Below are positions 3,718 through 19,496 of a DNA stretch of 22,069 nt, in pieces. The stretch comes from a virus. Location: IMG/VR virus record IMGVR_UViG_3300035670_001349, positions 1-22,069 of that record; one strand, 5' to 3'. Position 1 is the first letter of the stretch. Each line of letters begins with the position of its first letter. A program made the translations under genes and the position numbers. The notes below the pieces were generated by a model. It had not been told where the DNA came from. It made no database searches and was given only the letters and a program-made list of their open reading frames with translations.

Positions 3718-6576
3718 ATGGGTGAAGCAATAGTAACAGCAATTATAACTACCATAATAACTACTGCAATAAGTTATATTATTGCACCTAAACCAAAAGC
3801 ACCAAGATTTAATTCGCAAGACGAAGCAAAAGGAACATTAGTAAATAAAGATTCTAATAACAATCCTATTCCTGTTGTTTATGGTAAAAGACAAGTAGGT
3901 TTAACTAGAGTATTTGTTGAAAGTTCTGGTGCTGATAATCAATATCTTTATGTTGCTGGAGTATTATGCGAAGGTGGTGGTGCAGGAATTACTGCAATAG
4001 ATGAAGTTTACGTTGATGACAAACTAGTTACATTTGATGGTGCATTAACTAATGGAACTATAAGAGGAGTATCTAGTGGAGATGCTAATTATTATAAAGG
4101 TGGTGAAAGTTTAATATCTATTCAAGGATTTTTTGGATTAGATAATCAATCAGCTTCTTCTTTGCTTGATGAAACAACTAACTGGACATCAGATCATAAA
4201 TTATCTGGTCTTGCTTATGTTGCTTTAAGGTTTAAATGGAATCAAGATGCTTTTAATGGATTACCAGAAGTTAGAGTAACAGTTAGAGGTAAAAAGATTT
4301 ATGACCCAAGATTAGATTCAACTAAAGGTGGTTCTGGTTCTCATAGACAAGATGATGCAACTACTTGGGCTTATTCTGCGAACTCATCATTAGTTCTTTT
4401 AGACTATCTAAGAAACAGCAGATATGGAAAAGGATTACCTAATGATGCTTTTGAAACAAACTACGATTCATTTAAGACTTCTGCAAATACCTGCGATACA
4501 CAAGTTACACCTTATTCTGGTGCAGTAAGCGATATAAACTTATTTGAAACAAATGCAGTTATAGATAGTGAGAAAAAGGTATTAGAGAATGTAAGAGAAT
4601 TGCTTGTACCAATGAGAGCAATATTTAATTACACACAAGGTAAATACAAAGTTATTATTGAAGGAACAGGAAGTTCACAATTACTATTAACTAAAGATAA
4701 TGTTGTAAGCGAAGTTAAATTACAAGGTGAAAGCAAATCTGAAAAATATAATAGAGTTATAGGAACATTTACAAACCCTGAAAAAGATTATCAATCAGAT
4801 ACAGTTTCTTATCCACCTTATGATGATTCTGCATTAGACCCAGCAGATCAACACTCAACTATGTTATCTGAGGATAATAATACTTTATTAGAGAGAAGCT
4901 TTGATATGTTACAGGTAACTTCTCCATATCAAGCAGAAGAAATTTGCGAGAACATACTAAAAAGATCAAGAAACAATTTAAAAGCAGAAGTTACAGTTAC
5001 TTCAGAAGCACTTAACTTATCTATTGGCGACATTGTAACAGCTACATACGACACAGCAGGATTTAGTGCTAAACCATTTAGAGTTATGTCTTTAGCTATT
5101 AATTCAGATTCAACAGTAACTCTTGGATTAGAAGAACATCAAGATAACTTTTATACTTGGGAAGAAAAAGGCGAAGCACCTACAATAGCTGATACTGTAC
5201 TTCCAAATCCTTTTTCTGTATCTGCACCAGTTTCAGTTAGTTTAGATGACCAACTTATAGAATACTCAGATGGAGTTGTTATTACTGCTTTAGATGTAAC
5301 AATAGGTGCATCACTAGATAACTTTGTGGACTACTACCAAGTAGAATACAAACTAAGTACAGAAACAGATTATATTGTATCTGGTCAAGTTAAAGGATTA
5401 TTTCATAGAATACTAAACGTAGTAGATGGATTAATTTACAATGTAAGAGTAAAAGCATTTAATACATTAGGAGTTAGTTCTACTTACACATCTGCAACAA
5501 GAACTATTGTTGGTGGATTATTACCACCTGCTAACGTAGAAGATTTTTCTTGTAACATTATTGGTCGTGATGCTCACTTATCTTGGACACAAATACCAGA
5601 TTTAGATTTAGCTTATTATGCAATTAGATTTAGTACATTAACAACTGGTGCTGAATGGCAGAACTCAGTTTCACTTGTTGAAAAAGTTGCAAGACCAGCT
5701 ACTTCAGTTACAGTACCAGCTAGGATTGGTTCTTACTTAATTAAAGCAGTAGATAAAAATGGAAACTTCTCATCTAATGAAGCTGTAATATCAACTAACT
5801 TATTAGAAGTTGGAAACTTTAATGCTGTTGTAACACAAACTGAATCACCTACATTCTCAGGAACTAAAACTAATGTCTATGTTGATAGTGGTGCTTTAAG
5901 ATTAGACTCTACTGAACTATTTGATTCTGCTACTGGAAATTTTGATTCTGGTACTACTTTATTTGATGCTGGAGTTACGACTTATGACTTATCTCCTACT
6001 GGTTCTTATGAATTTACTTCTCCTATTGACATTGGTGGAAGTTACACAGTTCGTGTAACTGCTTCTCTTACACAAAGTGTGGACAATATAGATAATCTTT
6101 TTGATAGTGCTACTGGCGACTTTGATGATGGTGCTTCTAACTTTGATGGAGACTCTCCTGCTAACTGTAATGCTCATTTAGAAATTGCTACTTCTGCTGA
6201 TAACATAACTTATACTGCATTTAGAAATTTTGTAGTTGGCGATTATACGAGTCGTTTTTTTAAGTTCCGATTAATGATGACTTCATCTGATTTAGCTTCT
6301 ACTCCAGTTGTATCTGCTTTAAGTGTAACGATTGATGTAGAAGATACTATTCAAAATGGTAATGATTTAGTAAGTGGAACTGGTACTTATACAGTAGTGT
6401 TTACAAGACCATTCTATTCTGTTAATTATGCTATCGGTATTACTAATCAAGGAATGGCTACTGGCGATTTTTATACTTTAAATAACAAAACTATAAATGG
6501 TTTTGATATTGCCTTTAAGAATAGTAGTGGTACTGGAGTAAGTAGAACTTTTGATTATATTGCAAAAGGATTTTGA
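3718..6576 (+). CDS. Tail-tip / host-specificity protein (lambda J / GTA gp15-like)
   Basis: A 952-aa protein preceded by AAAGGGAG. The N-terminus is a hydrophobic helix (residues 4-22) followed by 'IPVVYGKRQVGLTRVFVES', the start typical of J-like tail-tip proteins. The central part has 'LDYLRNSRYGKGLP' and the ring domains of the tip. Around residues 500-600 and 605-695 are fibronectin type III-like strands ('YYQVEYKLSTETDY', 'YNVRVKAFNTLGVSS', 'SYLIKAVDKNGNFSS'). A repeated motif LFDSATG[N/D]FD[S/D]G occurs at residues 734-745 and 794-805. The C-terminus is a small beta domain ending 'SRTFDYIAKGF', probably exposed and receptor-facing. It is the last core tail gene before the homing endonuclease and fibre. 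Confidence 0.88.
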   Translation: MGEAIVTAIITTIITTAISYIIAPKPKAPRFNSQDEAKGTLVNKDSNNNPIPVVYGKRQVGLTRVFVESSGADNQYLYVAGVLCEGGGAGITAIDEVYVDDKLVTFDGALTNGTIRGVSSGDANYYKGGESLISIQGFFGLDNQSASSLLDETTNWTSDHKLSGLAYVALRFKWNQDAFNGLPEVRVTVRGKKIYDPRLDSTKGGSGSHRQDDATTWAYSANSSLVLLDYLRNSRYGKGLPNDAFETNYDSFKTSANTCDTQVTPYSGAVSDINLFETNAVIDSEKKVLENVRELLVPMRAIFNYTQGKYKVIIEGTGSSQLLLTKDNVVSEVKLQGESKSEKYNRVIGTFTNPEKDYQSDTVSYPPYDDSALDPADQHSTMLSEDNNTLLERSFDMLQVTSPYQAEEICENILKRSRNNLKAEVTVTSEALNLSIGDIVTATYDTAGFSAKPFRVMSLAINSDSTVTLGLEEHQDNFYTWEEKGEAPTIADTVLPNPFSVSAPVSVSLDDQLIEYSDGVVITALDVTIGASLDNFVDYYQVEYKLSTETDYIVSGQVKGLFHRILNVVDGLIYNVRVKAFNTLGVSSTYTSATRTIVGGLLPPANVEDFSCNIIGRDAHLSWTQIPDLDLAYYAIRFSTLTTGAEWQNSVSLVEKVARPATSVTVPARIGSYLIKAVDKNGNFSSNEAVISTNLLEVGNFNAVVTQTESPTFSGTKTNVYVDSGALRLDSTELFDSATGNFDSGTTLFDAGVTTYDLSPTGSYEFTSPIDIGGSYTVRVTASLTQSVDNIDNLFDSATGDFDDGASNFDGDSPANCNAHLEIATSADNITYTAFRNFVVGDYTSRFFKFRLMMTSSDLASTPVVSALSVTIDVEDTIQNGNDLVSGTGTYTVVFTRPFYSVNYAIGITNQGMATGDFYTLNNKTINGFDIAFKNSSGTGVSRTFDYIAKGF

Positions 6577-7015: not shown

Positions 7016-8570
7016 CATAGCGAACCAGTCGTTCCCTTCATTTAGAACTGACTTAAATAATGCACTATCAGCTATACAAACTTGTAACTCAGGAACATCA
7101 AGACCAACTGGTGCTGTCGCTGGTCAAATTTGGCTTGATACGACATCAGCAACAACTCCTACTTTAAAATATTATGATGGTGCTGATGACATCTCTTTAG
7201 CAACACTTGACCATTCTGCTAATACAGTAAATTGGTTAGACTCAACTGTGTCCATAACTGGACTCTCTACTACTGCTACTGGAACTGTTTTAACACTTTC
7301 AGATTCAGCTTCTACAACAACAGTTAATCTTATTATAGATAATGAAAAAGAAATTCGCTTTCGTGAAGCTACTGCTAATGGAACAAACTATGTAGCATTA
7401 AAAGCACCTGCTAGTGTAAGTGCTGATTTAACTTTTACTTTACCTGCAACTGATGGAACTGCTGGACAAGCATTAACAACTAATGGTTCTGGTGTATTAT
7501 CTTTTTCAACTATACAAAGTCCAAGTGGATTTAGAAATATCGTTATCAATGGTGATATGCAAATTGCACAAAGAAGTACAAGTGTAGCTTCTATTACTAC
7601 ATCTGGTTATTATACTTTAGATAGATGGAATCCTATAATTACTACTATGGGAACTTGGACTATGTCGCAATCAACTGATGTACCTTCAGGATATGGATTT
7701 GCTAAATCTTTAAAAATGGACTGCACAACAGCAGATGCTTCACCTGCCTCTGGAGATAGAATTTATATTAGACAAAACTTTGAGGGACAGAATTTACAAT
7801 ATTTAAAAAAAGGAACTGCTAGTGCTGTATCTTTAACAGCATCATTTTGGGTTAAATCTACAAAAACTGGTACTTTTATTTGTGAATTACATGACACAGA
7901 TAATACTAGAAATATATCAAAATCTTATACTGTAAATACTACTAACACTTGGGAATTTAAAACAATTACATTTGCTGGAGATACAACTGGTGCATTAAAT
8001 AATGATAATGATTTAAGTCTTACTATAAACTGGTATTTAGGTGCAGGGACAGATTGGACATCAGGAACTTTAGCAACATCTTGGGAATCAATAACAAATG
8101 CAAACAGAGCAGTTGGACAAGTTAATTGTGCAGATAGCACATCAAACGATTTTTTAATTACTGGAGTTCAATTAGAAGCTGGAACAAGTGCTACTGATTT
8201 TGAGTTCTTACCTTATGATGTGTCTTTGCAAAGATGTTTGCGATATTATGAAAAAATTAAAGCAGAATCAACCAGCCAATTATTTGGTGCTGGTTTTAAT
8301 TTTAGTACTACTCAAGGAATTGCTTTAATAAATTGTTCAAAAAAAAGAACTGATGTTAGCGTAACATTTTCTAGCACAGTTGGAGATTTTGGTTTATATA
8401 GTGCAACTGGTACAATAATTACTGCAACTGCCATAGTTGCATCACGAGGAACTTCAATTAGTTTTGCAACAACAGTAACTGTTGCAAGTGGTTTAACAGC
8501 AGGAGATGGAACAACTTTTATTTCTAACCTAACAACTAATCCATATATAGAAATATCAGCAGAACTATGA
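6999..8570 (+). CDS. Tail fibre protein (expressed cassette of an invertible fibre gene)
   Basis: A 523-aa fibre. The N-terminal segment ('NIANQSFPSFRTDLNNALSA', then 'GAVAGQIWLDTT') is the virion-attachment region common in marine phage fibres. The middle holds 'FRNIVINGDMQIAQRSTS' and 'TASFWVKSTKTGTFICEL', beta-rich and carbohydrate-binding-like. At residues 399-413 ('TDFEFLPYDVSLQRC') it enters a 47-bp sequence that is repeated inverted at 9267-9313. The last 110 residues after that point (about 414-523) are the variable tip, ending '..ISAEL'. Inversion of the segment between the repeats would replace this tip in frame with the minus-strand version. The ATG at 6999 lies inside the homing endonuclease gene; only a weak AAAGAA precedes it. 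The next gene overlaps its stop (ATGA). Confidence 0.9.
   Translation: MQHDYNIANQSFPSFRTDLNNALSAIQTCNSGTSRPTGAVAGQIWLDTTSATTPTLKYYDGADDISLATLDHSANTVNWLDSTVSITGLSTTATGTVLTLSDSASTTTVNLIIDNEKEIRFREATANGTNYVALKAPASVSADLTFTLPATDGTAGQALTTNGSGVLSFSTIQSPSGFRNIVINGDMQIAQRSTSVASITTSGYYTLDRWNPIITTMGTWTMSQSTDVPSGYGFAKSLKMDCTTADASPASGDRIYIRQNFEGQNLQYLKKGTASAVSLTASFWVKSTKTGTFICELHDTDNTRNISKSYTVNTTNTWEFKTITFAGDTTGALNNDNDLSLTINWYLGAGTDWTSGTLATSWESITNANRAVGQVNCADSTSNDFLITGVQLEAGTSATDFEFLPYDVSLQRCLRYYEKIKAESTSQLFGAGFNFSTTQGIALINCSKKRTDVSVTFSSTVGDFGLYSATGTIITATAIVASRGTSISFATTVTVASGLTAGDGTTFISNLTTNPYIEISAEL
8191..8237 (+). repeat. Left arm of 47-bp perfect inverted repeat (fibre inversion site)
   Basis: Bases 8191-8237 are the exact reverse complement of 9267-9313, 47 of 47. 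Identity stops sharply on both sides (8190 g against t, 8238 t against c). The repeat encodes the fibre junction residues 399-413 in the same reading frame in both copies. Each arm contains the perfect palindrome TCTTTGCAAAGA (8223-8234 here). Confidence 0.95.
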
Positions 8571-8746
8571 TTATAAATGTAGAAAAATTATATATTAATG
8601 GTGTTGATTGTAAAACTTATAAAGTTATTTACAATAACAATAAAATAACTTTTGTACCATTAAACGAAGCAAACACAGACTACCAAGCTATTCAAGAATG
8701 GATTGCTGAAGGTGGCGAAGTAATAGATAACCCACCTACTGAATAA
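8567..8746 (+). CDS. Small fibre-partner protein of the expressed cassette (59 aa)
   Basis: A 59-aa ORF whose ATG overlaps the fibre stop (ATGA). It has a short strand-rich N-terminus ('VEKLYINGVDCKTYKV') and a C-terminal 'NTDYQAIQEWIAEGG' helix. The minus-strand protein at 8749-8928 is the same length and shares 'NTDYQ...W...G', so this is a family that travels with each fibre tip. By analogy with U of Mu it may be a tip-specific fibre assembly factor or a small structural protein; XkdW-like small tail proteins are an alternative. Function is inferred from context. Confidence 0.75.
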   Translation: MIINVEKLYINGVDCKTYKVIYNNNKITFVPLNEANTDYQAIQEWIAEGGEVIDNPPTE

Positions 8747-8748
8747 GA

Positions 8749-8928
8749 TTATTCGCTAATTTCGTCTGCTGGTAAAGGTGTATTTCCTTCTTCTAGCCAT
8801 TTTAAGTATTCTTGATAATCGGTATTAGGTAAATCAAATGGAATAAAAGCATTATCAGATAAACGACAAACAACTTTAGATTCAATTAATCCATTAGGTT
8901 TTTTTTGTTTTGGTAATAATTTATACAT
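8749..8928 (-). CDS. Small fibre-partner protein of the silent cassette (59 aa)
   Basis: A 59-aa minus-strand ORF whose ATG (8926-8928) begins two bases after the stop of the silent fibre tip. It contains 'NTDYQEYLKWLEEGN', matching 'NTDYQAIQEWIAEGG' in the plus-strand partner, in a protein of identical length. The sequences differ elsewhere, so the pair diverged with their fibre tips. It has no obvious promoter of its own in this orientation and would be expressed only after inversion. It ends two bases from the stop of the plus-strand partner. Confidence 0.75.
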   Translation of the reverse strand: MYKLLPKQKKPNGLIESKVVCRLSDNAFIPFDLPNTDYQEYLKWLEEGNTPLPADEISE

Positions 8929-8930
8929 AC

Positions 8931-9332
8931 TTATAACTCCGAATCAATTTTAATTTGACTTGTTGAAGAAGAATAAAAATAAGAAGCATTTCCAGCAGTA
9001 AATGATGATGTAAAACCAGTTCCAGATAAATGAAATCTTGAAACAGTTATATCACTTACTGTTATTGTTCCTGTTGTAGCAGGATAATTTACATCACTAG
9101 CTAAAAAATTTACAGTTCCAGAAACCGTTCCAACAGTAGGTAAGGTTATTGTAGGATTTGCTCTTTTTTGAGTTAAATAATTAAGATCTGCCTTAACAGC
9201 ACTAGTGGTATGAGCTTGACCACAACTAACAAATTCATCTAAATAAATTAATTCAAAATACCTCTGACATCTTTGCAAAGACACATCATAAGGTAAGAAC
9301 TCAAAATCAGTAGAACGAACTTGATTTAACAA
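8931..9332 (-). CDS. Silent alternative tail-fibre C-terminal cassette
   Basis: A minus-strand frame that encodes the fibre junction 'TDFEFLPYDVSLQRC' followed by 111 residues different from the expressed tip but of the same kind and length (110 in the expressed one) and with a similar end ('..IKIDSEL' against '..IEISAEL'). Upstream of the repeat the frame opens only after a TAG, with a TTG at 9332 as the sole possible start and no Shine-Dalgarno sequence. The residues there do not match the fibre, so it is not a stand-alone gene. It is best read as a store cassette that becomes the fibre C-terminus (N-terminal 398 residues unchanged) when the segment inverts. Most of it is beta-rich with Thr/Ser/Gly, as expected for a receptor-binding tip. 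Confidence 0.82.
   Translation of the reverse strand: MLNQVRSTDFEFLPYDVSLQRCQRYFELIYLDEFVSCGQAHTTSAVKADLNYLTQKRANPTITLPTVGTVSGTVNFLASDVNYPATTGTITVSDITVSRFHLSGTGFTSSFTAGNASYFYSSSTSQIKIDSEL
9267..9313 (-). repeat. Right arm of 47-bp perfect inverted repeat (fibre inversion site)
   Basis: This is the partner of 8191-8237, read on the minus strand at the start of the silent fibre tip. Beyond the repeat (above 9313) the minus strand no longer resembles the fibre, which shows that the copy is only a tip cassette and that this arm is the recombination boundary. Confidence 0.95.
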
Positions 9333-13558: not shown

Positions 13559-13682
13559 ATTTTTCAAAGTTAAAAGCTATCTTGGAATTTATAAACTCTC
13601 TAAGTCTTTTTGCTTTTTCAAGTTTCATTTTATATTCCAATTCAAGATCAAGCAACTTTCGTTGGCGATCTCTCAGCTTCAT
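13548..13682 (-). CDS. 44-aa basic helical protein
   Basis: A 44-residue ORF from ATG 13682, overlapping the end of the previous gene by 35 bases. It is one charged helix ('KLRDRQRKLLDLELEYKMKL'), lysine- and arginine-rich. The function is unknown; overlap and shared strand argue that it is real. Confidence 0.5.
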   Translation of the reverse strand: MKLRDRQRKLLDLELEYKMKLEKAKRLREFINSKIAFNFEKLLG

Positions 13683-13863
13683 AACTACTTGGCTTTGTTG
13701 TAGCATCAGCTAGTTTTATATTATTTCTTATGAACTTAGTATTTAGTATGTCCACAGAAATAATCTTACCTTCCTTTGTTTCAGTTAGAGCATCTTCTGT
13801 ATTCTCAAATAGTTCTTTAACTAAGATAGAACACTCAATTAACTTTTCTCTAACTACCTTCAT
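13648..13863 (-). CDS. Hypothetical 71-aa protein
   Basis: The longer frame starts at 13965, but those first 34 residues come from the structured element and are unlike a protein start. The ATG at 13863 ('MKVVREKLIECSILVKELFE') is more likely. It has no Shine-Dalgarno; a promoter candidate lies only a few bases upstream, so the mRNA may be leaderless. The helix-strand make-up is unremarkable and the family is unrecognised. Confidence 0.6.
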   Translation of the reverse strand: MKVVREKLIECSILVKELFENTEDALTETKEGKIISVDILNTKFIRNNIKLADATTKPSSYEAERSPTKVA

Positions 13864-16950: not shown

Positions 16951-17453
16951 GCTATCTTCCTTTGCCCAGCTTTGTTTAAACCACCTTCTAGTTCTTCGCA
17001 AACAACACTTCTTTCAGTCCAACCAAAAGGAATAATGTAATCTTTTGGAAAAACAAATAGATGATATTGATTTGCTGTGTCCATTAATCTTTTTTCACTT
17101 GGATAAAGTTCAATGGCTTCTCTTGTTTCACTTACCAATTCGTTTTTAATTAATTGGAAGTGTCTCCAGTCGTGTATAGATTTTTTATCTAATCTTTTAA
17201 TTGATAGATAATCAATCATTCCATACCAACTCTTTTCATGTACCAACCAATTAGCTTGGTCTCCACGAAAAACTCTAACTTCATAAGTATCATTTCTGAA
17301 TACTTCACAATTATACATTTCATTGTAAAATTGTTTTGATTGTTCGTAAGTAAGATTTAAACCAAAACTTTTAGCTTCTGATTTACAATATTCAAATCTA
17401 GCTTTAATTGGTAAATCCCAAATAGGAAAATGTGCTTTTCTAAATGGTGTCAT
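16947..17453 (-). CDS. Conserved phage protein, DUF7694-like
   Basis: A 168-aa protein with the signature 'HDWRHFQLIKNELVSETREA' followed by 'IELYPSEKRLMDTANQYHLF', seen in many phage and prophage proteins of unknown role. The N-terminal half is aromatic-rich and helical. It overlaps the upstream gene by four bases. The family name DUF7694 is from memory and should be checked. Confidence 0.65.
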   Translation of the reverse strand: MTPFRKAHFPIWDLPIKARFEYCKSEAKSFGLNLTYEQSKQFYNEMYNCEVFRNDTYEVRVFRGDQANWLVHEKSWYGMIDYLSIKRLDKKSIHDWRHFQLIKNELVSETREAIELYPSEKRLMDTANQYHLFVFPKDYIIPFGWTERSVVCEELEGGLNKAGQRKIA

Positions 17454-17833
17454 TTAATCTCCTTTACGTAAGTGTTCCAGTATTGACCTTTAATCAAAAG
17501 CTTTTTAGTTTTTGTTTGATGATGCAGTTCTAAGATTTGCATTTGCAAACATTTATTAATTGCTCTTGAGATTCTGCCTGAATTAATTTCAGGAAGTTTG
17601 TCTTTAATTAATCCAATCATAACTCTACGACCAATACCTTTAACTCTTTTAGAGTCATTAGAATAATTTTCTTGAATTAATTTTATAGCTTCAGGATAGA
17701 CAACTGAAAAAGAATTACGAGATTCTTTTTTATATCTATTTGCAAAAGCTAAAAACCACTTATCCCAACCCTGTGGGTCGGCAGTCCAACAAGGTGCATT
17801 TTCTTCACCTGTGTATTTTATTTTGTTAGTCAT
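17450..17833 (-). CDS. Hypothetical 127-aa protein at the head of the minus-strand block
   Basis: The first gene of the minus-strand operon, facing the divergent control region. It has a basic, helix-rich make-up ('GIGRRVMIGLIKDKLPE', 'SGRISRAINKCLQMQILELH') that fits a winged-helix or other DNA-binding protein, but this is a guess from helix pattern. AAAGGGAAAA precedes the ATG. Unrecognised. Confidence 0.7.
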   Translation of the reverse strand: MTNKIKYTGEENAPCWTADPQGWDKWFLAFANRYKKESRNSFSVVYPEAIKLIQENYSNDSKRVKGIGRRVMIGLIKDKLPEINSGRISRAINKCLQMQILELHHQTKTKKLLIKGQYWNTYVKEIK

Positions 17834-17904
17834 ATTTTCCCTTTTTGTTTTTTATATATAATTAATATAATTATAAAAATCTTAATTTCAAGCTTATAAG
17901 TAGA

Positions 17905-17913
17905 TTATCCACA
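17905..17913 (+). promoter_or_regulatory. Perfect DnaA box (TTATCCACA)
   Basis: The nine-base consensus high-affinity DnaA box TTATCCACA is exact at 17905-17913. It lies in the AT-rich divergent spacer next to a phage gene for a DnaA domain IV-like protein. One box alone could occur by chance but the setting makes a role in initiation or in control likely. Confidence 0.6.
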
Positions 17914-17991
17914 GCTTAATATAAGAAATATATTAATGAAATCAATGACTTAAATCGTTGCTATTTTGTTCTATATTTGATACTAGGGATT

Positions 17992-18019
17992 GTGGTGTGT
18001 ATGCCTTCCTACACACCAC
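17992..18019 (+). promoter_or_regulatory. Ten-base GC-rich hairpin with CCTTCC loop
   Basis: GTGGTGTGTA (17992-18001) pairs perfectly with TACACACCAC (18010-18019) around the loop TGCCTTCC. There is no T-run. It lies 18 bases before the ATG at 18038, so it would be in the leader RNA. The loop is complementary to GGAAGG, the Shine-Dalgarno used by several genes here. Confidence 0.6.
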
Positions 18020-18037
18020 GTATAAACAGGAAATAAT

Positions 18038-18184
18038 ATGCCACTAATTAAAGGTTATTCTAAAAAATCAATAAGTAAGAATATTAGCCGAGAAATGAAA
18101 GCTGGTAGATCACGTTCACAATCTGTGGCTATTGCTTTGTCGGTTGCAAGAACTGCAAAGAAAAAAGCTAAAAAATATAAGTAA
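18038..18184 (+). CDS. Small basic protein, phage-conserved (48 aa)
   Basis: A 48-residue, strongly basic protein. 'MPLIKGYSKKSISKNISREM' then 'KAGRSRSQSVAIALSVARTA' and a lysine tail. This short signature is frequent in phages of marine and other Gram-negative bacteria, and is probably DNA- or RNA-binding. AGGAAA precedes the ATG. It is coupled to the HNH gene (TAATG). Confidence 0.75.
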   Translation: MPLIKGYSKKSISKNISREMKAGRSRSQSVAIALSVARTAKKKAKKYK

Positions 18185-18570
18185 TGCAAATTGCGAAGGC
18201 AAAAATAATTCATTCTGTTAAGCATCAGAAGTTCGTGGCTTCTTTTCCATGCGTGGTATGTGGCAACGATACCCAAGTTCAATGCTGTCATATTAGATCA
18301 ATCCCAAAAGTAGGTAATGTAGGCAAAGGGATAAGAGATGATAGGTTCTGTATTCCAATGTGCTTTACTTGTCATACCCAACAGCATCTTATTGGCGAAT
18401 TAGAGTTCTTTGAAAAATATAATATAAATCCTATATTGATTTCTATGAAGATAGCTAGTATATCTCCTTGTAATAAAATTAACCAATCCAAACAGGAAGG
18501 TGCATACAATGGTAAACTTGACTATCGGCAACATATCCGAAATAACAAAAAAAGTTCTTTGCAATCCTAA
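18184..18570 (+). CDS. HNH-type nuclease, DUF968/Orf-like
   Basis: A 128-aa zinc-binding nuclease: Cys23-x2-Cys26 ('PCVVCG'), His36 ('CCHIRS'), 'GKGIRDDRFCIPMCFTC' with Cys60, Cys63 and His64, and His68. It follows the DUF968/lambda Orf-type layout, a recombination-linked HNH nuclease of phages. It lies just upstream of the DnaA-like gene, with an overlap of about 60 bases. A role in resolving or processing DNA joints is the family expectation. Confidence 0.75.
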   Translation: MQIAKAKIIHSVKHQKFVASFPCVVCGNDTQVQCCHIRSIPKVGNVGKGIRDDRFCIPMCFTCHTQQHLIGELEFFEKYNINPILISMKIASISPCNKINQSKQEGAYNGKLDYRQHIRNNKKSSLQS

Positions 18571-18784
18571 ACTTTATAAAGAATTAGATTTCTTTGAAGT
18601 TCCACACAATAAAGTTTGTCTAGCAGTTATTAGGGAACTAACTAAGTTATCTTATAATGAAATTGGCAAAGCATATAAAAAATCTTGGTTCACAATTTAT
18701 TCTGCTGTTAAAGACACAAACAAAAATGGACTTAAATCATTTACAGCTAAAGTAATTGATCTGGTCAAAGCAGAAGTTAAATGA
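18509..18784 (+). CDS. Free-standing DnaA domain IV-like DNA-binding protein
   Basis: A 91-aa protein (ATG 18509 with AGGAAGG; a GTG at 18500 is poorer). Residues 33-68 ('HNKVCLAVIRELTKLSYNEI' and on to 'AVK') match the start of DnaA domain IV, in which helices before 'RELTxLSxxEIGxAF' bind the DnaA box; Arg42 corresponds to E. coli Arg399. The base-reading motif GRDHTTV is changed to 'KSWFTIY', so specificity may differ. There is no AAA+ domain, so it cannot load helicase by itself. Its stop overlaps the start of the replisome organiser (ATGA). A perfect DnaA box lies 600 bases upstream. Roles: origin recognition for the phage, or a competitor of host DnaA. Confidence 0.75.
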   Translation: MVNLTIGNISEITKKVLCNPKLYKELDFFEVPHNKVCLAVIRELTKLSYNEIGKAYKKSWFTIYSAVKDTNKNGLKSFTAKVIDLVKAEVK

Positions 18785-19356
18785 TTGAAGGTTGGATAGC
18801 TTTACACAGGAAGATTTATACATCTAACGATTTTAAAAATCAGTTAGAGGTTTCTATATTTATTTATCTACTTACAATGGCTTCGCATAAGCCAATACAA
18901 GTTATTTATAGAAAAAAGAAATTAACTTTAAATAGAGGTGAAGTTTCAATAGCTTATAGAGATTTGGCTAAAAAATTTAATATTTCTAAAGATAAAGTTA
19001 GAACTGTTATTAAGAACTTAATTCAATCAAATAACATAAGACAAACTTTGCACAAACGTCTTAGCATATTTAGCATTGTAAAATATAGCAAATATCAAGA
19101 TTTGCCAAAATCTCAAGACAAACTTTCCCACACAGAACAACAACCATATACTAATATACTATATAGTAGTAAAAATAATGATATAAGTCTTAGCAATATG
19201 ACTAATACACCAAAGAAAATTACTATTCCTACCTTGCAAGACTTAAAAACCAAGATTATTGAGAAACCAAGAGAAAAGAACGAGTTTGAAATTATGCGTG
19301 AAAAACTTGACGCAGAAGATTACGAAAAATGGGTTCTGCACAGATTAAACTCTTGA
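18781..19356 (+). CDS. Winged-helix replisome organiser / replication initiator
   Basis: A 191-aa protein. The N-terminal ~100 residues match the phage replisome organiser layout: 'GWIALHRKIYTSNDF', 'LNRGEVSIAYRDLAKKFNIS', 'KDKVRTVIKNLIQSNNIRQT' and 'IVKYSKYQ', a winged helix that binds origin DNA. The C-terminus is a linker with an acidic helix ('EFEIMREKLDAEDYEKWV') that could touch a helicase loader. It is co-translated with the DnaA-like gene. It would load the host helicase at the phage origin. Confidence 0.75.
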   Translation: MIEGWIALHRKIYTSNDFKNQLEVSIFIYLLTMASHKPIQVIYRKKKLTLNRGEVSIAYRDLAKKFNISKDKVRTVIKNLIQSNNIRQTLHKRLSIFSIVKYSKYQDLPKSQDKLSHTEQQPYTNILYSSKNNDISLSNMTNTPKKITIPTLQDLKTKIIEKPREKNEFEIMREKLDAEDYEKWVLHRLNS

Positions 19357-19402
19357 AATAAAACAATAATATCTTTATAACTACAAATAACTATATAGGT
19401 AT

Positions 19403-19426
19403 GGGGGTTGAAACATTACCCCCTTT
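19403..19426 (+). terminator. Rho-independent terminator-like hairpin (GGGGGT/ACCCCC)
   Basis: GGGGGT (19403-19408) pairs with ACCCCC (19418-19423), nine-base loop, followed by TTT and AT-rich DNA. It follows the replication initiator gene by 46 bases and ends that operon. The only strongly G/C-rich stretch in this gap. Confidence 0.7.
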
Positions 19427-19496
19427 AAAATTTATATATTTACTTAATCCTAAAATATCATTAGTGATTCGCCATTAACTAACAGGAGAAATAGTT

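Follow-up and report, generated by a model that had tools for sequence, protein, structure and literature searches.

A divergent spacer with a single, variable DnaA box and a conserved leader hairpin as a candidate early control region in a freshwater phage group

The divergent spacer and its neighbouring genes

What does a single perfect DnaA box do in the spacer between two diverging blocks of phage genes? A sequence-only reading of this DNA had proposed a replication origin; control of the flanking promoters is the other main possibility. The stretch analysed, called here the window, is a virus record of 22,069 bases, whose relatives reach 32-33 kb, one of them (G002) with a 127-bp end repeat. 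The spacer, delimited from the ORF list and an alignment of homologous spacers, occupies 17834-18037 (204 nt, A+T 75.5%) between a leftward ORF at 17450-17833 and a rightward ORF beginning at 18038. As read from the ORF list, the main gene blocks switch direction twice, converging at about 12.65 kb and diverging at 17834-18037, which is the only divergent spacer of the window, as had been claimed. The A/T-only stretch of the earlier description is also present, as a 33-nt run at 17848-17880 that is the longest in the window. Comparison of the spacer DNA with annotated phages gave no match, and none of the open-access literature searched describes a spacer of this kind from these phages.

The first leftward gene (17450-17833, minus strand) encodes a 127-residue protein for which no family was found and which has no match in annotated phages. 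It is swapped among relatives: with a crude choice of ORF, the 57 spacers in which one was found carry 27 sequence groups of first leftward gene, and the spacer stays. Its place has the look of an early accessory-gene slot. The rightward operon opens with a basic protein of 48 residues (18038-18184, plus strand; PHROG 2423, E 3.6e-18), followed on the same strand by an HNH-type protein (18184-18570; DUF968, 30.6 bits against a cut-off of 27.8), a stand-alone 91-residue protein with a predicted DnaA domain-IV-like fold (18509-18784, or from a GTG at 18500 as an alternative start) and a DnaD-like helicase loader (18781-19356; PHROG 2514, E 6.4e-20). The earlier statement that replication genes lie directly to the right is thus borne out by the loader and by the DnaA-fold gene before it. 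A search of genome contigs with the DnaD-like protein, made in order to find a host, returned no relative. Beyond the loader, the gap at 19357-19496 contains a G+C-rich hairpin in some of the relatives listed, and then a widely conserved stretch of the TTTAAAAATTATATATTTACATAA type; this gap could be a terminator followed by a promoter, and signals for control or replication might be located here instead of in the spacer.

The product of 18509-18784 had been described as DnaA-like, and this holds for its predicted fold but not at the Pfam threshold. Its score against PF08299 (DnaA domain IV) is 18.0 bits, below the curated cut-off of 31.5; among its relatives 13 of 22 match that family at E ≤ 0.1, the best at 0.0026. 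Searches with the structural model (pLDDT 90.8) returned DnaA structures as the top three Foldseek matches (E 0.026 to 0.12) and as the top four in VIA-align (Z 9.9, 9.1, 8.3 and 8.2, the next being 5.1), a method in which helical models can yield middling Z by chance. Because two independent weak signals agree on one family, the protein is likely to have the DNA-binding (domain IV) fold of DnaA. A sequence search of the PDB gave only a chance-level hit, and there was no match in annotated phages or among the proteins of a phage collection. In the predicted recognition region Lys-Ser-Trp (K-S-W) is invariant in all 22 aligned members, with K-S-G in an additional relative (L182); the Asp-His-Thr-Thr signature found in the recognition region of DnaA is not at the matching place. 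As far as the literature searched goes, a stand-alone DnaA-fold gene adjoining a DnaD-like loader is new.

A DnaA box at a fixed place

The perfect DnaA box TTATCCACA lies where it had been reported, as an exact match at 17905-17913 on the plus strand, and is the sole perfect copy in the window when both strands are scanned. Dinucleotide shuffles give a chance expectation of 0.24 perfect boxes per window, and one of 300 shuffled spacers held one. For comparison with relatives, loci were found by searches with five window proteins, and the 127 loci in which the 48-residue gene was preceded by 150 nt or more of sequence were reduced to 60 distinct spacers, the window counted in. The box is perfect in 36 of these, has one mismatch in 5 and is present in neither form in 19; the form TTATNCACA is fitted by 38. 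Across the 60 loci, the 12,000 bp of spacer hold 36 perfect boxes and the remaining 611,538 bp hold 3, an enrichment of approximately 600-fold. Position is equally constrained, with 35 of the 36 perfect boxes placed 124-147 nt before the start of the 48-residue gene; the exception, at 192 nt in L037, is an anchoring artefact of a duplicated first gene start.

These spacers are homologous, so their counts are not independent and significance is inflated. A better argument is therefore the recurrence of the box within unrelated surroundings: the 36 perfect boxes have 26 distinct flank pairs, the conserved unit is the 9-mer alone, and it occurs in both orientations. The same 9-mer is the commonest one in the stretch from -150 to -113 of the 60 spacers (35 occurrences). 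A scan that was blind to the box and used the rightward promoter element and the hairpin loop described below found 76 contigs, many of them overlapping the earlier set. In the 69 with enough upstream sequence the box was perfect in 39, had one mismatch in 6 and more mismatches in 24 (33, 5 and 20, respectively, among the 58 distinct sequences), and all 39 perfect boxes lay 46-59 nt upstream of GTTGCYATT. On this sequence evidence the box is more than a product of chance, and it looks real and useful.

That the 9-mer is the site of some other protein, or is kept by descent alone, is a reading to which we give little credence. The homology of the spacers speaks for it, and the unrelated flanks, the two orientations, the at least 17 changes of state required by parsimony (see below) and the prominence of the 9-mer in its stretch of the spacer all speak against it.

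Promoter-like elements and an IHF-like site

The DnaA box sits between two promoter-like elements. On the minus strand, TTGAAA beginning at 17891 and TATATT ending at 17864, 16 nt apart, form a leftward promoter-like pair (17864-17891) that matches the consensus at a frequency not above that of shuffles, three such pairs being found against 3.1 expected; the CAA of its -35 is common to the large majority of aligned spacer rows. On the plus strand the conserved element GTTGCTATTTTGTTC (17957-17971) includes a -35-like TTGCTA at 17958-17963, and a -10-like GATACT was picked out by eye at 17979-17984, a spacing of 15. Its core GTTGCYATTWTGTTC is kept in 59 of the 60 spacers, and the element is a putative promoter.

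Between the box and the rightward element lies an IHF-like site, AATCAATGACTTA, at 17940-17952 on the plus strand, which fits WATCAANNNNTTR. An exact fit to the IHF consensus, ATCAATGACTTA, is present in 34 of the 60 spacers, and also in 42 of 1000 shuffled window spacers (4.2%). At the four free positions of the site TGAC prevails (45 of the 57 sites that have one mismatch or none), which is more conservation than IHF would require. We treat the site as a lead only. One-mismatch sites, present in 57 of the 60 spacers, were set aside as uninformative, since 615 of 1000 shuffles pass as well. A palindromic operator, CAATGA...TCGTTG, was also considered and rejected by eye from the alignment, its spacing varying among relatives. 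No CtrA site of the form TTAAN7TTAA was found in the window spacer.

A leader hairpin with a fixed loop and a covarying stem

Between the rightward element and the 48-residue gene, at 17992-18019 on the plus strand, is a hairpin that the sequence-only reading had not described. It is a perfect 10-bp inverted repeat (arms 17992-18001 and 18010-18019) enclosing the 8-nt loop TGCCTTCC at 18002-18009. None of the 60 spacers lacks the loop, which in 59 of them lies no more than 80 nt from the gene start. The stem was analysed in 187 loci matching the promoter-loop pattern, with redundancy kept, under a rule for the stem core that required GTG/CAC ends and tolerated up to two bad pairs. All but three of these loci (L221, L250 and L256) fit the rule, and the 184 fall into 14 distinct stem cores, in which 131 pairs are Watson-Crick and 9 are G-T; A-C and all other combinations are absent. 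Altogether 138 such hairpins occur among 205 sequences; 3 are in loci where nothing matched the 48-residue gene, and all the others lie near that gene.

By sequence, the hairpin is the most constrained and strongest feature of the spacer. Because this strand shows G-T but never A-C pairs, the pattern points to an RNA or a single strand of the rightward sense. A search of Rfam 15 matched the hairpin to no described family; the sole hit lay elsewhere in the window (13591-13719) at E 0.18, far below the cut-off. With its fixed loop and covarying stem it is a leader element undescribed in Rfam 15, and a leader hairpin of this fixed-loop type is new as far as the literature searched goes. By eye, a hairpin with a different loop, GTAGGGTAAG ... 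CTTACCCTAC, was also seen before the first rightward gene in the divergent spacer (3927-4411) of the Pelagibacter phage HTVC112P (L138).

Gain, loss and inversion of the box among relatives

Loss of the box in close relatives had been named as grounds for refuting the origin proposal, and such loss is what the comparison shows. Among three mutual nearest relatives the window has the box on the plus strand, L036 has it inverted and L045 has none. Overall, 31 of the 36 perfect boxes are inverse to that of the window and 5, the window included, have the same orientation. The states (plus, minus, and none or mismatch) were mapped on a tree of 59 rows, built from the 760 nt of rightward operon next to the spacer. 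By parsimony they need 17 changes, fewer than in any of 200 label shuffles (mean 22.7), so that the state of the box is partly inherited yet often changing; when only well-supported branches are counted, the minus label must still change at least 8 times. As far as the literature searched goes, it is new for a phage family to gain, lose and invert a single box so quickly at one fixed position.

The interval from the leftward -35 to ATCAATGACTT, counted without L037, is 40-41 nt in 15 of 59 spacers and 50-53 nt in the other 44, with none between. This step of about one helical turn suggests, from the sequences, that whole turns are gained or lost.

Two further ideas were rejected. The state of the box is not tied to the first leftward gene, which is shared by the window (plus), L008 (minus) and L004 (none). 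A move of the box to dnaD in phages that lack it in the spacer has no significant support, a box there being found in 2 of 31 box-less and 0 of 35 box-bearing phages (p 0.22). A perfect box does occur within dnaD of L004, L007 and L053, at an identical in-frame place (nt 201).

Promoter control or replication origin

We give an even chance to the proposal that the spacer is a divergent early control region in which the box modulates the promoters through host DnaA. Under this proposal, the leftward promoter would serve the exchangeable accessory gene, and the rightward promoter the operon for the 48-residue protein, the HNH protein, the protein resembling the DNA-binding domain of DnaA and the DnaD-like helicase loader. 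The 9-mer between them would most likely be a true host-DnaA site modulating both, and expression of the early and replication genes would follow host DnaA. The rightward transcript would probably start at or just before the hairpin with its fixed UGCCUUCC loop, which may be a leader element acting in stability or protein binding. The box would be optional and would work in either orientation. DnaA control cannot be essential, because 19 of the 60 spacers are without a box within one mismatch. The box does lie at a fixed place near a promoter-like element, the putative promoter of the operon. What the sequences show directly is the position, enrichment and switching of the box and the covariation of the hairpin; DnaA binding, use of the promoters, the direction of any effect and the function of the hairpin are inferred from them.

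The same facts also fit an optional box at an origin, and the two roles can hold together. As an origin, the spacer would have host DnaA at the box, perhaps with IHF, opening A/T-rich DNA, and the DnaD-like loader and the DnaA-fold protein recruiting the host helicase. We regard this as possible and, on balance, doubtful. Part of the original claim stands: a perfect, position-specific box is conserved beside a replication-initiation operon, and the spacer contains at least one high-affinity DnaA box, as a DnaA-dependent origin should. Some plasmid origins need no more than one DnaA box. Against it, the nearest relatives have the box inverted or do not have it at all, there is one perfect box only, and neither iterons nor a cluster of boxes was found in the spacer, the operon or the downstream gap. 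The 33-nt A/T run, a candidate unwinding element that would suit an origin, overlaps the leftward promoter-like pair. The IHF-like site, exact in more than half of the spacers, would likewise suit an origin, but its fit is weak when judged by the shuffled window spacers.

GC skew, the other check that had been named, gave a divided answer. Cumulative skew was rotated to the spacer in G001, G002, G003 and HTVC112P, whose genomes are 32.4-32.9 kb long; the minimum falls 0.1-3.5 kb to the right of the spacer and the maximum 26.8-28.2 kb to the right. In G003, G005 and HTVC112P the minimum is near the spacer, and in G002 and G001 it lies within approximately 1.4-3.5 kb, in agreement with an origin. 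However, the maximum coincides with the convergent gene switch instead of lying opposite the spacer, and HTVC112P, with no perfect box anywhere, has the same skew. Since both extremes follow the switches in gene direction and the box-less phage behaves alike, GC skew cannot decide the matter and was rejected as proof of an origin.

The reader of the box

Host DnaA is more likely to read the box than is the DnaA-fold protein of the phage, because the box comes and goes while the K-S-W region stays. The alternative, in which the product of 18509-18784 reads the box for autoregulation or as an initiator site, draws on its predicted domain-IV fold and on the place of its gene within the operon driven from the spacer, and we consider it unlikely. 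K-S-W occurs in box-bearing and box-less lineages alike (12 of the 59 rows being unparsed), and a reader that does not vary would be expected to have an unvarying site, which the box is not. The displaced or missing Asp-His-Thr-Thr signature also counts against this reader, for which the near-constant GTTGCYATTTTGTTC region would be a better candidate target. A sink, in which the numerous copies of the phage genome would titrate host DnaA and so halt initiation in the host, is very improbable: one high-affinity site per genome and indifference to orientation would suit it, but it has no need of the fixed position that 35 of the 36 boxes occupy before the first rightward gene.

A bolder combination, which we offer as speculation and consider unlikely, is a compact switch for replication and transcription in which an exchangeable one-box cassette, gained or removed by roughly one helical turn at a time, tunes the phage to host DnaA, the stand-alone DnaA-type domain of the phage with its changed recognition region binds the fixed GTTGCYATTTTGTTC, and the hairpin, by way of its invariant UGCCUUCC loop, links early transcription either to priming or to a partner that binds RNA. 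If DnaA-tuned control is correct, a common freshwater phage group would be reading the replication clock of its host through one DnaA site that can be lost, beside an early-gene slot of exchangeable content, and would carry its own DnaA-type DNA-binding domain. The natural relatives that differ in presence or orientation of the box are ready-made test pairs.

Comparison with known systems and related phages

DnaA boxes at promoters and at origins are already known. The lambda origin lies inside gene O and has iterons; none were found in the window spacer or operon, and the initiator genes differ. The likeness is that host DnaA is tied to transcription of phage replication genes, the lambda origin region having, in passages of PMC3985674, DnaA-stimulated transcription and DnaA-like boxes near pO. 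At the mioC and dnaA promoters of E. coli, passages of PMC5835720 describe single or few DnaA boxes that control transcription, with a consensus box upstream of or between promoters, as in the window. The present case differs in being a phage with one box, divergent promoters and switching of orientation and presence, and DnaA dependence is here an inference. Predicted origins of Alphaproteobacteria, as described in PMC1914354, combine DnaA and IHF sites, with several boxes in about 400 bp and conserved boundary genes adjoining; like our spacer, they are A/T-rich and bring TTATNCACA together with an IHF-like site, and they differ from it in that one box is present here in 204 nt.

The nearest isolate by DNA is HTVC112P, with one stretch of 71.9% identity covering 3% of the window. 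It has a similar layout with a divergent spacer, but is without a perfect box. This kinship and a G+C content near 31% make a host from a SAR11/Pelagibacterales lineage likely. The operon of 48-residue, HNH and DnaA-fold genes was seen neither in this phage nor in HTVC010P, the DnaA-fold protein having no match when the proteins of the phage collection were searched. In HTVC010P (L259), also an isolated Pelagibacter phage, a single perfect box is present at 667, in a non-coding stretch and 50 nt upstream of the first rightward gene (725). A second group of contigs (L011-L016, L017, L018 and L022) carries relatives of the leftward protein beside a T7-type terminase gene. In L017 (1930-2261) and L018 the terminase-side spacer contains a perfect TTATCCACA, and other aligned members of the group have ATATCCACA in the spacer beside CAATGACTTATTC.

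Finally, the 3' end of the tail-fibre gene, at 8188-9332 of the window, looks like an invertible cassette, for which Mu-type tail-fibre switching is the comparison. It is bounded by inverted repeats of 71 nt (8188-8258 and 9246-9316, 89% identical) and encloses paired small genes at 8567-8746 (plus strand) and 8749-8928 (minus strand). An alternative fibre C-terminus is encoded on the minus strand at 8931-9332, with 36% identity over 142 columns.
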